Positions 41,451-48,840 of a DNA stretch of 60,610 nt are shown here, one piece after another. The notes beneath the pieces are model-generated. The model was not told the DNA's origin. It searched no databases and was given only the letters and a program-made list of their open reading frames with translations. Origin of the DNA: Methanoculleus sp. (GTDB lineage: Archaea; Halobacteriota; Methanomicrobia; Methanomicrobiales; Methanoculleaceae); contig NZ_JAJGBK010000012.1 of NCBI RefSeq assembly GCF_020696975.1, forward strand, positions 1 through 60,610. Reading direction: 5' to 3'. A program made the translations under genes and the position numbers. How positions within the stretch are numbered: position 1 is the stretch's first letter; every line of letters starts with the position of its first letter.

Positions 41451-42884
41451 CTAACATTTCTGCAGGATAACCTTTATTGCCGCTCCTTCCTCCGGTTTGC
41501 CCGGAACCCGGTCCGCCGCCCAGACGCGCCCGCCATACCGGGTTACAAGGGTCTTGACGATGTGAAGCCCAAGACCCCTGCTTCCGGGCGTGGTCTTCCC
41601 CTCACGGTTGAAGCGATCGAAGATGTTGGGTTTGAGGTGATCCGGTATGCCGATCCCGGTATCGGCGATGGTGAGCGTCACGATCTCCGCGGTCTCCATG
41701 ACGGATATATCGATCCGCACCTTCATGCCGCCGAACTTGATGCTGTTGCTGATCAGGTTGGATATGACGTGTTCGAGGAGAGGGTTTGCCCAGACCATGT
41801 GGCTCCCCGGCTCGTACCGGATATCGATCCCCGCGTAACGCCGTACCTGGTCATGGATGACGCAGTCGAGATCGACCGGCTCCAGGCGGACCTGGTGCTT
41901 GTTGAGTGTGTTTAAGAGTTCAACGTTCTTGATGACGTTGATCCCCTGCTCGACCGTGTTCTTGACCCTCTGTGCGAGTTCCGCCTCCTCGCCCGAGAGC
42001 CGTTCCCGGAGCATCTCGATGATCGTTGCTGCAACCATGCTGGTGTTGTAGATGTCGGTGCCGAGCAGGTCGAGATAGAGGTTTGAGAACTGGCTGGTCT
42101 CCTGGAGGGTCCGTTCACAGAGGAGGTCCCGGGTGATATCGCGGCTGACGCCGGTGGCTGCCATGATCCTCCCTGCAGGATCGTGCAGGGGGTGGATGGT
42201 GACGTGGAATGACCGCTGGTCCCCGTGCCACAGAAACGTTCGGGTCTCGGATACGACCTCTCCTGCCTCGACGACCCGGCGGGCAGCCCTGACAAGGAAG
42301 TCTGCCTCTTCGGCCGGCAAGAGGGCATGGGGGGTCTTCCCCACGATCTCGTCCGGGTTTACGCCCACGTTCCGGCCCCCGGTCCAGAAGAACTGGGTGA
42401 AGATGCCGTCCTGGCTGAGCGTGAAGATCATATCGGGCAGGGCGTTTGCCAAGATCTGCACCTGTTCTCGCGATGACTCTTCGACCGGTGGCTCTCTGGG
42501 AGTATCCCGGAGCGTCTCGACCGCCCCGATCTGTCGGCCGGCGGCGTCGCGGAGAGGGGCAGCCATACAGACAACCTCTCTGCCGGATACGAGGGTGATG
42601 CGTGATTCGGCGAGCCGGCCTTCACCGTCGTGGGGGAGCAGGCGGTAGTGGTCGCTCCCGGGCTCGCTCTCTGTCAGGATACAGTCCGCCAGTGTGGGGC
42701 GACTCTCACCGAACAACGCCTCCCCATGAGCGTAATTGCCTTTCCCGATGATATCCTCCGGAGAGACCCCGGTGTACTGGACCATGCCATCGTTCCAGAC
42801 GACCACCCGTCCCTCGCAGTCGAGAACAAGTGCCGGCTGCTGGAGGTGGGTGAATATACTCAAGGGTATCTGGCTGTGACTCAT
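41451..42884 (-). CDS. PAS sensor, histidine-kinase-like, lacking phospho-acceptor His
   Basis: A 477-residue soluble protein with two PAS domains (about residues 8-125 and 140-255) and a C-terminal HATPase (about 325-470). N-box NLISNSIKFG, DTGIGIP and GSRGLGLHIV are intact. At the dimerisation helix, where methanogen kinases read LYLDLxGHDINN, this one reads LYLDLLGTDIYN, so His is replaced by Thr (about residue 276). It has no membrane segment and no receiver domain or neighbour. The start at 42884 is uncertain; an ATG at 42923 with AGGTGATG nearby is also possible. Confidence 0.8.
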   Translation of the reverse strand: MSHSQIPLSIFTHLQQPALVLDCEGRVVVWNDGMVQYTGVSPEDIIGKGNYAHGEALFGESRPTLADCILTESEPGSDHYRLLPHDGEGRLAESRITLVSGREVVCMAAPLRDAAGRQIGAVETLRDTPREPPVEESSREQVQILANALPDMIFTLSQDGIFTQFFWTGGRNVGVNPDEIVGKTPHALLPAEEADFLVRAARRVVEAGEVVSETRTFLWHGDQRSFHVTIHPLHDPAGRIMAATGVSRDITRDLLCERTLQETSQFSNLYLDLLGTDIYNTSMVAATIIEMLRERLSGEEAELAQRVKNTVEQGINVIKNVELLNTLNKHQVRLEPVDLDCVIHDQVRRYAGIDIRYEPGSHMVWANPLLEHVISNLISNSIKFGGMKVRIDISVMETAEIVTLTIADTGIGIPDHLKPNIFDRFNREGKTTPGSRGLGLHIVKTLVTRYGGRVWAADRVPGKPEEGAAIKVILQKC

Positions 42885-42923
42885 GGGTTCCCTGATCTTT
42901 TCCTGGTCTATCTTCACACGCAT

Positions 42924-43374
42924 CACCTGCAAACGGTTCTCGGCCGCATGGAGCCGCGGAAACTCCCTCTCCCGGAAGGGTCATCCGTCTCGGCAAATAC
43001 GACGTCCTTTGCTTCTTACTTGCACCGGTCCCTGACGAGACCCCCGCACCTTGCACCAGTCAACCCAGGAAGGCGAAGAAAGCGGGGTATCCCCAGAACC
43101 GGAGAGACATATAAAAAGTGTCTGGGACCGCCGCTTAAAAGAGTGTCTATTTATTTGTTTCAGAATATGTTGTGATGAAGATTTATTATTTATATTTTTC
43201 TAGATCACTCCCCGCTATAACGGTCAGAGTTGGTACAACGCGTTGATTTAACGCTGAAAATTTATTATCAGGGCACTTAATGTGCCTTTTTGAGATTGGA
43301 ACCGGGAACGCAACAGACCGATAGTTTCCGTTATTGAAGTAACTTAATATTTGAGTATTTGCAGAGTATAGGTG
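42924..43374. promoter_or_regulatory. Divergent intergenic region with TATA box of the DUF432 gene
   Basis: No gene is apparent in this 450-bp stretch. From about 43130 on it is unusually AT-rich. A TATA-like acttaatatttgag (43342-43355) is centred about 27 nt before the DUF432 start. Another TATA-like acatataaaaag lies near 43108 and could serve either strand. The kinase message would then have a long leader. Confidence 0.45.
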
Positions 43375-46565: not shown

Positions 46566-46583
46566 CTACGATATTTTTCGTAG
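46566..46583. promoter_or_regulatory. Perfect inverted repeat next to the SIMPL promoter (operator candidate)
   Basis: ctacga-tatttt-tcgtag is a perfect 6-bp palindrome with a 6-nt spacer, flanked on the plus strand by ctttaa on both sides. It sits immediately upstream of the TATA/BRE position, where an archaeal regulator could block or recruit TBP/TFB. It could also form a weak RNA hairpin. Confidence 0.5.
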
Positions 46584-46700: not shown

Positions 46701-48014
46701 TCACGATCCTTCATCCCCTTCGCCGCCCGTTACGGCATTGATTGCATCGAGCACCTCTCTGGCGGACCGGTAGCGGTCGGCAGGCTCTTTTGCGAGGCAG
46801 CGGAGAATGATTCCATCGAGCCTGGCGAGGGCGGGGTCGACCTCTGAGGGGGGGACCGGCTGCCCGTTCAGGATCGCCCCGGCCATCCCGGCGATGCCCT
46901 CGCCGGCATAGGGGGCCATTCCCGTCACCAGCTCGTAGAGGACGGCGCCGAGCTGGTAGATGTCGGTCCCGGCCCCGGCCCCGGTCTTCCCGAACCGTTC
47001 CGGGGCGATCTGCTCCGGGGCAGCGTAGGCGAGGGTGAACCCGGCGGCGCCGGTCTCCCGGCTCGTTGCGAGTCTCGTGCTCATGCCCCAGTCGGTGATC
47101 TTCGGCGTCAGGTCGTCGGCGAGGAGGATGTTTCCGGGCTTGATGTCCCGGTGGACGACGCCCCGCTCGTGGGCATAGGCAAGCCCGGCGGCGATGCCGG
47201 CAGCGATCCGGGCGGCGGTCCCGACCGGGAGCGGTTTATCGAGGTCTGCGAGGCTCCGGGGCAGGTACTCCATCTCGACGTACGGGACCGGGAGGATGTT
47301 GACCGAGTAGACCTGGACGATGTTAGGGTGGACGAGGTCCTCCCAGAACCGCATCTCCTTCATGAACGTCTTTCCGGTTGCCTCGTCGTAGGTGACCGGT
47401 ATCTTCACCGCTACGGTCCGACGGTCATCGCGCCTGACTGCGGAGAAGACCTGTCCGAGCCCGCCCCTCCCGACGAAGGCGATCCGGTCGTAGCGCTCTC
47501 CAAGTTCCGGCGGGAACCCGGCCGGACGGGAGAGTTGGGTCCGGTATGCGCCGGGCAGGATGGTCGCGCCTGCCCGCGTTTCGCCGCCGGCACCTCTTTC
47601 CTCCGGTTCCATCAGGTATCGGGCACCAAGCACGGCGGCGCCGGCGAGCAGGATGAGGCCCAGTCCAATCCCGCCCCAGCCGGAGAAGTCTGCGACCGTC
47701 GGCCCGCTCCCCTCTTCACCGGCTCTTCCGGCCTGCTCTTCTCCCGGGGTCCCGGCAGGTGTGAGCGAGGGGAGGGGGCTCGGTGTCTCTTTGGGTTTAC
47801 CCTTGCCCTTATCCTTGTTCTGGCCTGGGGCTAACCCGCTCTTCCCGGGAGCGGTGGTGACGTCGTCGGCCGGCGCTTTGCCCGCAGCCCCGATGGCCGG
47901 AACGACGCCGTTCGTGTCCCCTGGCGGTCCACCCGCTCCCGAGACGGCCGGAGCGATCGCAGCGAGGAGGAGGGCGGCGGCGAGGAGCAGGACTGTCGCC
48001 CGTTCAGGCCGCAT
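46701..48014 (-). CDS. Transmembrane eukaryotic-like Ser/Thr protein kinase
   Basis: A 437-residue protein: signal sequence (about 1-27), extracellular Gly/Pro/Lys-rich linker (about 28-110), one membrane helix (about 113-133) and a cytoplasmic C-terminal kinase (about 176-430). Kinase motifs are VGRGGLGQVF, VAVKIP (Lys), HRDIKPGN (about 288-295), DWG in place of DFG (308-310) and YAAPEQ (APE). All catalytic residues needed for activity are present. The order (sensor outside at the N-terminus, kinase inside at the C-terminus) is reversed from bacterial PknB. It overlaps the wHTH-FHA gene by 11 nt and is co-expressed with it. Confidence 0.88.
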   Translation of the reverse strand: MRPERATVLLLAAALLLAAIAPAVSGAGGPPGDTNGVVPAIGAAGKAPADDVTTAPGKSGLAPGQNKDKGKGKPKETPSPLPSLTPAGTPGEEQAGRAGEEGSGPTVADFSGWGGIGLGLILLAGAAVLGARYLMEPEERGAGGETRAGATILPGAYRTQLSRPAGFPPELGERYDRIAFVGRGGLGQVFSAVRRDDRRTVAVKIPVTYDEATGKTFMKEMRFWEDLVHPNIVQVYSVNILPVPYVEMEYLPRSLADLDKPLPVGTAARIAAGIAAGLAYAHERGVVHRDIKPGNILLADDLTPKITDWGMSTRLATSRETGAAGFTLAYAAPEQIAPERFGKTGAGAGTDIYQLGAVLYELVTGMAPYAGEGIAGMAGAILNGQPVPPSEVDPALARLDGIILRCLAKEPADRYRSAREVLDAINAVTGGEGDEGS

Positions 48015-48801
48015 CCGCCGCCGGCACCCCCCCGGGAACAACGAAGACAAGGGTTGCCCCCGGCGCTCCTTTGGCGAGTTCGACAAGGTCGCCGTCGTGG
48101 AGTTCTCCCCGCGCGCCCCGGTCGAGCGGCGCGCCGTTCACGAACGTGCCGCCGGTGCTCCCGCAGTCCTCGATGAACCAGGCGCCGTCCCGCCGGGTGA
48201 TCCGGGCGTGCGGTCGTGAGACACGGGTGACCGCCGCATACTCATCGCCGAGGACGATCTCCTGTCCGGACCGGCCGGGCGCGTCCGGGTCCGCCCGCCC
48301 TACGGCGATGCTGTCGTCTCCGAGCGGGAAGACCTTGCCGTCCTCCGCTCCCCCTAACAGGATGAAGACCGGACTCTGCCCGGCAAACTCGCCCGAGAAC
48401 GTCTCCCGGACACCGGCAAGTTTCTTTGCGAGCACGGCATCCGTAAGCGTCAGGTTCAGGTTCGCAAACAGCCCGAGGCTTCTCGTGATCGCCTCAAGCC
48501 CTCCGGGCACGAGCGAGTACTTCCAGACCGGGCGGATCCCTTTTGCGGTCGGCCGGGAGAGACCGGCCTCTTTCCGGACGACCCCGATGCTCATGAGTTT
48601 GTCGAGGTGCTTCTTGGTGTTCTCGTAACTTGTCTCGATTGCGGCCGAGATCTGCCGGATGTCCTTTGGCTTGCGCTCGATAACTTTGAGGACCTTTAGA
48701 CGTGTGCTGCTGCTCAGCACGTCCAGGTATTCGGAGAGTTCCTGCAGATCGTCGGTGTCCATATCAAGGATCAGTGTCCTTGTGTCGTCGTCGCTGGTCA
48801 T
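48004..48801 (-). CDS. Winged-helix DNA-binding protein with C-terminal FHA domain
   Basis: A 265-residue protein: an ArsR-like winged helix (about 25-92, SSSTRLKVLKVIERKPKDIR then ISAAIETSYENTKKHLDKL), a linker helix (about 98-135) and an FHA domain (about 144-255). FHA motifs are VGR (about 167), SRPH (195-198) and GSTGGTFVNG (about 214-223). The usual Asn of STNGT is Gly here. FHA domains bind phosphothreonine. The start MTSDDDTRT was chosen since GCAGGGGATG lies before it; an ATG 13 codons upstream is also possible. It is upstream of, and overlapping with, the membrane kinase. Confidence 0.85.
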   Translation of the reverse strand: MTSDDDTRTLILDMDTDDLQELSEYLDVLSSSTRLKVLKVIERKPKDIRQISAAIETSYENTKKHLDKLMSIGVVRKEAGLSRPTAKGIRPVWKYSLVPGGLEAITRSLGLFANLNLTLTDAVLAKKLAGVRETFSGEFAGQSPVFILLGGAEDGKVFPLGDDSIAVGRADPDAPGRSGQEIVLGDEYAAVTRVSRPHARITRRDGAWFIEDCGSTGGTFVNGAPLDRGARGELHDGDLVELAKGAPGATLVFVVPGGVPAADAA

Positions 48802-48840
48802 AGCATCCCCTGCCGGCCTTCCATTGCTGTATATTTCCAT

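Follow-up and report, generated by a model that had tools for sequence, protein, structure and literature searches.

A candidate membrane kinase-to-regulator phosphothreonine circuit in a conserved gene pair of the Methanomicrobiales

In Mycobacterium, embR lies upstream of pknH in the same operon (PMC9239209), and the FHA domain of EmbR is required both for the interaction with PknH and for phosphorylation by this kinase (PMC9239209, PMC4601284); EmbR was found to be unphosphorylated during normal growth (PMC9239209). In Actinobacteria, autophosphorylated sites on PknG recruit the FHA domains of OdhI and GarA, whose N-terminal tails are then phosphorylated by PknG (PMC8546545). The FHA domain of DgcB from Bdellovibrio binds the protein's own phosphorylated N-terminal tail and thereby drives the output domain, with specificity set by the +3 residue, a known determinant of FHA recognition (PMC6733907). 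In Sulfolobus (S. tokodaii), a kinase phosphorylates an FHA protein that binds promoter DNA and this alters the binding, but no operon of a receptor kinase and its regulator is described there (PMC5300886); ArnA carries an N-terminal Zn-ribbon (PMC10470591), where the regulator described below has a winged helix. For the single steps of the circuit that we propose there are bacterial precedents.

The window, i.e. the whole stretch of 60,610 nucleotides of Methanoculleus sp. DNA analysed here, contains a regulator gene whose product runs from a disordered, acidic N-terminal tail through an ArsR-like winged helix (wHTH) and a helical linker to a C-terminal FHA domain, and which overlaps the gene of a transmembrane Hanks-type Ser/Thr kinase (Table 1). 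Homology matches place the window in Methanoculleus or a near relative. As in EmbR-PknH, a regulator with an N-terminal winged helix and a C-terminal FHA domain has the gene of a transmembrane Ser/Thr kinase directly downstream. EmbR, however, is a SARP with an OmpR-type wHTH and a BTAD, whereas the archaeal regulator has an ArsR-like wHTH, gave no BTAD match in Pfam and bears a conserved Thr in its N-terminal tail. Since the wHTH type differs and the BTAD is absent, the regulator, judged by its sequence, stands outside the EmbR/SARP family while its working logic is alike. The sensor of PknH is C-terminal and extracellular; that of the archaeal kinase is N-terminal. A further difference is that the archaeal regulator and kinase occur once in the source genome, as exclusive partners, and are duplicated as sets in relatives, often together with a PP2C phosphatase gene.

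Table 1. Coordinates of the features of the regulator-kinase locus within the window.
Feature	Position	Strand	Details
wHTH-FHA regulator gene, first of the pair	48004..48801	-	265 aa; ATG 48801, stop 48006-48004; Pfam, AF2, starts of congeners
Transmembrane Hanks-type Ser/Thr kinase gene	46701..48014	-	437 aa; ATG 48014, stop 46703-46701
Regulator 3' end shared with the kinase 5' end	48004..48014	-	11 nt
Thr codon in N-tail motif T-[ILV]-x-[ILV], candidate phospho-site	48775..48777	-	T9 from ATG 48801 (T22 in P0002)
ArsR-like winged helix-turn-helix domain	48505..48741	-	Pfam HTH_5; AF2 helices and wing
Recognition helix YENTKKHLDKLMS	48589..48627	-	Best-conserved segment between paralogues
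FHA domain	48061..48369	-	Pfam; R182, H211, S228, N235 invariant (92/92); N to G at 230
Gly codon in place of the canonical STNGT Asn	48151..48153	-	Gly 85/92, Asn 2/92
N-terminal signal/anchor helix, residues 3-24	47943..48008	-	Prediction
Disordered, low-complexity segment predicted to be extracellular, residues 25-112	47679..47942	-	
Transmembrane helix, residues 113-134	47613..47678	-	Prediction
Thr151 of the juxtamembrane segment (ATILPG), candidate site of autophosphorylation and of FHA docking	47562..47564	-	T in 78/92
Kinase catalytic domain, residues 171-431	46722..47504	-	Pfam, motifs
DWG motif replacing DFG, residues 308-310	47085..47093	-	91/92 relatives
Palindrome CTACGA-N6-TCGTAG = AACTACGA-N6-TCGTAGTT	46566..46583	.	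Promoter of the next gene, SIMPL/DUF541

The earlier note on this DNA had the 3' end of the regulator gene overlapping the kinase gene by 11 nt, and its coordinates are correct; the same -11 ATG overlap is found in nearly all congeners and in a few other genera. An alternative in-frame regulator ATG at 48840, upstream of 48801, is the less likely start because nearly all congeners use the start that corresponds to 48801. Stop readthrough into a regulator-kinase fusion was rejected, since TAA, TGA and TAG all occur as in-frame stops, which makes them ordinary. Both genes probably form one operon.

The proposed fusion of an ArsR-like winged helix to an FHA domain is confirmed by Pfam (FHA, 8.5e-15; HTH_5/ArsR, 1.4e-5, above the cut-off), with an HTH_5 match in 64/66 relatives, and by the AlphaFold2 (AF2) model, in which a wHTH is joined to an FHA beta-sandwich. 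This model represents one unphosphorylated chain and is uninformative on docking, but it predicts the FHA fold confidently, and the Foldseek matches of the FHA part were GarA, OdhI, DgcB, EmbR and ArnA, the best with a TM to target of 0.89 (GarA, 6i2r). GarA and OdhI are among the best relatives of the domain by sequence as well as by fold. With the metalloregulatory ArsR/SmtB proteins the regulator has the wHTH fold alone in common: its NCBIfam HTH_metalloreg score is 25.4 bits, below the cut-off of 55, and the translation P0002 holds a single Cys. Between paralogues of one genome, mean identity is 75% in the recognition helix, 61% over the wHTH, 40% in the FHA domain and 32% in the linker; this suggests that regulator copies with different inputs bind similar DNA.

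In canonical FHA domains, the Asn of the STNGT motif makes a peptide backbone contact. That this residue is Gly in the regulator had been seen correctly, and the trait proves to be family-wide, so the exchange was rejected as the mark of a decaying pseudo-FHA. Absence of the Asn bears on peptide contact and not on membership of the FHA fold; with the backbone-contacting Asn replaced by Gly in 85/92 members, peptide binding may be altered. The phosphate-contacting Arg and Ser/Thr and the structural His are present in the alignment of 92 regulators (R182 and H211 in 92/92, S208 in 78 with Thr in a further 13, T229 in 83/92). Two divergent paralogues (L076, L097) have kept the canonical Asn as STNGS and are perhaps a separate specificity class. 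The family-wide Gly would suit an FHA domain that acts independently of phosphate, as a surface for dimerisation or kinase binding, while the tail or wHTH is phosphorylated directly and the added charge alters DNA binding. A degenerate FHA domain would, however, be expected to lose Arg182, His211, Ser228, Asn235 and the Ser/Thr at 208, and here the first four (Asn235 being the distal Asn) show no variation, while 91/92 members retain Ser or Thr at 208; the linkage to PP2C and the hydrophobic +1 and +3 positions around the tail Thr (see below) also suit phospho-reading. We therefore consider a phosphate-independent FHA domain distinctly unlikely.

The kinase matches Pfam Pkinase (PF00069) at 1.5e-39, with 136.5 bits against a cut-off of 31.7. 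The catalytic motifs, which had been called complete, are all present (G-loop, K204, E220, HRD 288-290, DWG 308-310, APE and R414) and vary little or not at all among 53 relatives. DWG in place of DFG, also pointed out earlier, occurs in 91/92 kinases, the 92nd being truncated; on this count it is a family signature, and it was rejected as a sign of a decaying pseudo-enzyme. The best-matching solved kinase domains are those of the PASTA kinases PknB and StkP, which are likewise membrane-anchored, but the archaeal kinase has DWG rather than DFG, its sensor is N-terminal to the kinase domain, and no PASTA repeats were matched in it (NCBIfam PknB_PASTA 189.8 against a cut-off of 450).

All examined kinases have their sensors N-terminal to the kinase domain, opposite to PknB. 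The earlier note's N-terminal extracellular sensor stands as regards position but not as a folded domain in the window species, where the "sensor" amounts to ~88 Pro/Gly/Thr-rich residues of predicted disorder (pLDDT ~40); the juxtamembrane segment following the transmembrane helix is predicted to be disordered as well. Folded sensors are found in the kinases of other genera: 12/53 of those scanned carry a NosD-type beta-helix and 6/53 carry PEGA, the others being multi-TM or disordered. Two clusters, L118 (G100:C56) and L121 (G142:C5), hold two to three extra kinases of the same type with the FHA partner not nearby. One genome (G006) encodes long kinases (L115, L116), one of them with a beta-propeller-like plus PEGA ectodomain and adjoining a PP2C gene; an FHA protein was not found in this genome, which has kinase and phosphatase without a regulator-type reader.

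To follow the pair across the order, 150 Methanomicrobiales genomes were searched separately for regulator and kinase. The regulator was found in 99/150 genomes (29/35 genera) and the kinase in 101/150 (28 genera): 97 genomes have both, two the regulator only, four the kinase only and 47 neither. Conservation of the two genes as neighbours in relatives, on which the earlier note had made its proposal depend, is seen order-wide, with a listed kinase directly downstream on the same strand for 128 of the 147 regulator matches. Inspection of the loci showed that most other regulators adjoin a kinase scoring below those listed or lie at the end of a contig; in one case (G097:C63) the kinase is encoded on the opposite strand. 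A regulator copy at L130 (G047:C23:14112-15578) is followed by a PP2C gene, not a kinase, and ~3 kb downstream of it lie a second, divergent regulator and kinase. Outside the Methanomicrobiales, a profile search (E 1e-10) of ~310 genomes of the phylum found no such pair; a Methanoperedens match (L051) was rejected as a family member, since this protein, although it has an FHA domain, is unrelated and lies in a TPR-kinase cluster.

Copies of the pair number one to four per genome. Between multi-copy genomes, the best kinase match and the best regulator match belonged to the same pair in 122/165 comparisons, against 75.2 (sd 9.2, maximum 103 in 1000 shuffles) when partners were shuffled within genomes; the comparisons are not independent of one another, but the effect is large, and regulator and kinase co-evolve as cognate pairs. 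Loss is also joint: two genomes (G063, G120) are without both genes while the flanking neighbours are intact, and a third (G124) retains a 42-aa remnant of the kinase. It could be argued that the genes are incidental neighbours, co-transcribed without functional contact, and adjacency by itself is never proof of contact. No result supports this reading, and order-wide adjacency at one to four copies, joint loss and cognate co-evolution disfavour it so strongly that we regard it as barely credible. The source genome, which is 95% complete, encodes a single FHA protein, a single Pkinase match and a single PP2C_2 phosphatase; regulator and kinase are therefore each other's only candidate partner. 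Order-wide, all listed FHA matches belong to the regulator family with the exception of G149:C8.

Each protein of the pair has a conserved Thr in a disordered segment. The Thr of the regulator tail is kept in 90/92 members and in 48/50 non-redundant ones, while the rest of the tail, which has a pLDDT <50 in the AF2 model, varies; alignment is soft here as in the kinase juxtamembrane segment, both being disordered. Position +1 from this Thr is I/L/V and position +3 is mostly L/I/V. Of 50 non-redundant juxtamembrane segments of the kinase, 39 contain T[ILV], compared with 19.9 in shuffled ones (sd 3.1, maximum 31, 2000 shuffles), whereas S[ILV] is unenriched (17 vs 21.2). The two sites can resemble each other within a single locus, as in L101 (kinase DRTVLVAPD, regulator DRTLVSGAD). 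These sequence patterns support a phosphothreonine circuit. The arrangement is like that of GarA/OdhI with PknG (and PknB) in Actinobacteria, where a Thr is likewise placed in a disordered N-terminal tail ahead of the FHA domain, and where the FHA domain is recruited to an autophosphorylated Thr in a disordered segment of the kinase (PMC8546545). The differences are that GarA and OdhI act on enzymes instead of DNA and that their tail motif is ETTS rather than T-[ILV]-x-[ILV]. The output domain of DgcB is a diguanylate cyclase; that of the archaeal regulator would be DNA binding.

A phosphatase gene often completes the locus in relatives. Of the 150 PP2C genes listed, 24 lie <=1 kb from a member of the pair, and 23 of these share its strand; by our estimate about one such case or fewer is expected by chance, given 1-3 PP2C genes per ~2.4 Mb genome. 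The gene order is mostly PP2C-regulator-kinase, with regulator-kinase-PP2C in a few genomes (G101, G053, G045). The PPM motifs NED, ADGxGG, GMGTTL, GDSR, SSDG and DN are present in 7/7 PP2C proteins read. In the window genus the single PP2C gene is unlinked and is retained in genomes that lost the pair, so there it may act on other substrates.

The observed gene pair, its domains, conservation and joint inheritance, the exclusive partnership within the genome and the two conserved Thr form the basis of the following proposal. A cell-surface signal would activate the kinase, which would trans-autophosphorylate, probably including juxtamembrane Thr151; the resulting phosphothreonine would dock the FHA domain of the regulator, and the kinase so docked would phosphorylate T9 (counted from ATG 48801), the conserved Thr in the N-terminal tail of the regulator. 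The phosphorylated tail would be bound by the regulator's own FHA domain or that of a dimer mate, shifting the wHTH and changing DNA binding, and PP2C, whose gene adjoins the pair in many relatives and lies elsewhere in this genome, would reset the system. A membrane-receptor kinase with its cognate transcription factor, working through this full circuit, is the reading we favour with moderate confidence. Our results strengthen the earlier note's core idea of a path from membrane kinase through FHA regulator to DNA, because the two proteins are exclusive partners, PP2C adjoins them and the Thr are of docking type; the path withstood the sequence-level attempts at refutation, while the palindrome put forward for binding tests is probably not its target and its principle was already known. 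Since the analogous EmbR is unphosphorylated in normal growth, the kinase-to-regulator route, even if proven in vitro, may be minor in vivo.

The enriched juxtamembrane T[ILV], the conserved phosphate contacts of the FHA domain and the PP2C genes next to the pair in relatives are also what would be seen if the phosphorylated juxtamembrane Thr of the kinase, bound by the FHA domain, simply kept the regulator at the membrane and off the DNA, dephosphorylation by PP2C releasing it; the regulator would then not need to be a substrate. Such sequestration, the chief alternative, leaves unexplained the even better conserved Thr of the regulator's own tail (90/92), and we think it unlikely.

As for the DNA side of the favoured circuit, the palindrome at 46566, suggested earlier as a site for testing DNA binding, turned out to be a promoter element of the SIMPL (DUF541) gene: it is near-perfect, lies ~50-65 bp before this gene in congeners, usually once per genome, and is retained in at least six congeneric genomes where the regulator was not found. 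Because it is present where the pair has been lost, it is probably not the operator of the regulator and was rejected as such; its distribution marks it as the apparent dedicated site of another regulator. A PAS-type histidine kinase gene of the window (41451-42932) has conserved synteny with the SIMPL/MBL/MscS block in congeners. A second palindrome, GTATATGGAAATATAC, upstream of the regulator, occurs in the window only, is absent from congeners and was likewise rejected as an operator. Among 75 regions upstream of regulators, no common dyad stood out beyond a weak group of imperfect palindromes, GGTTnAA..TTGAACC, ~80-150 bp before the regulator start (L024, L038, L043, L067, L081), which is a weak candidate operator. 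A regulator that controls only its own operon and the kinase level, with the kinase serving other substrates and the FHA domain reading other phosphoproteins, would be in line with the overlapping genes of one probable operon and with the fact that a shared operator was not found elsewhere. A conserved palindrome was, however, not found upstream of the regulator gene either, and the sole Hanks kinase and sole FHA protein found in the genome co-evolve; such a purely autoregulatory role is in our view very improbable.

The principle of the proposed circuit is already known: EmbR-PknH (PMC9239209) has the same logic and gene order, and Sulfolobus offers an archaeal precedent, with an FHA protein that binds DNA as the target of a kinase (PMC5300886). 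Within the open papers searched, no earlier description of the pair or of a dedicated archaeal receptor-kinase/regulator operon was found; a kinase/phosphatase "signature" of Methanomicrobiales (PMC2686161) was rejected as a prior description because it concerns SpoIIAB/SpoIIE-like proteins. What is new is the order-wide archaeal receptor-kinase/regulator operon with its adjoining phosphatase gene and paired Thr motifs, together with the STGGT signature of the FHA domain, the DWG signature of the kinase and the exchange of sensors between relatives. An archaeal variant of a known design is well supported, and the findings suggest surface-to-gene signalling that is based on a kinase and not on two-component chemistry.

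The use of Hanks-type kinases by archaea, including the transfer of surface signals to DNA, is a largely open field. Here the assignment of partners is unambiguous, a candidate phospho-site can be named in each protein, the ectodomains of relatives provide handles on the signal, and the cytoplasmic parts of kinase and regulator are small domains suited to expression and assay in E. coli. The proposed circuit would also mean that the EmbR-PknH design has evolved twice, the second time around another type of DNA-binding domain. As a tentative generalisation, which we rate as possible though short of probable, the Methanomicrobiales would possess an order-specific set of modular receptor kinases, each with an FHA-wHTH factor and often a PP2C, in which sensors are swapped while the recognition helix stays near-constant and a non-canonical STGGT groove fits the T-[ILV]-x-[ILV] motifs of the two proteins. 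If this is true, several surface inputs may converge through such writer-reader-eraser operons on a shared set of promoters.
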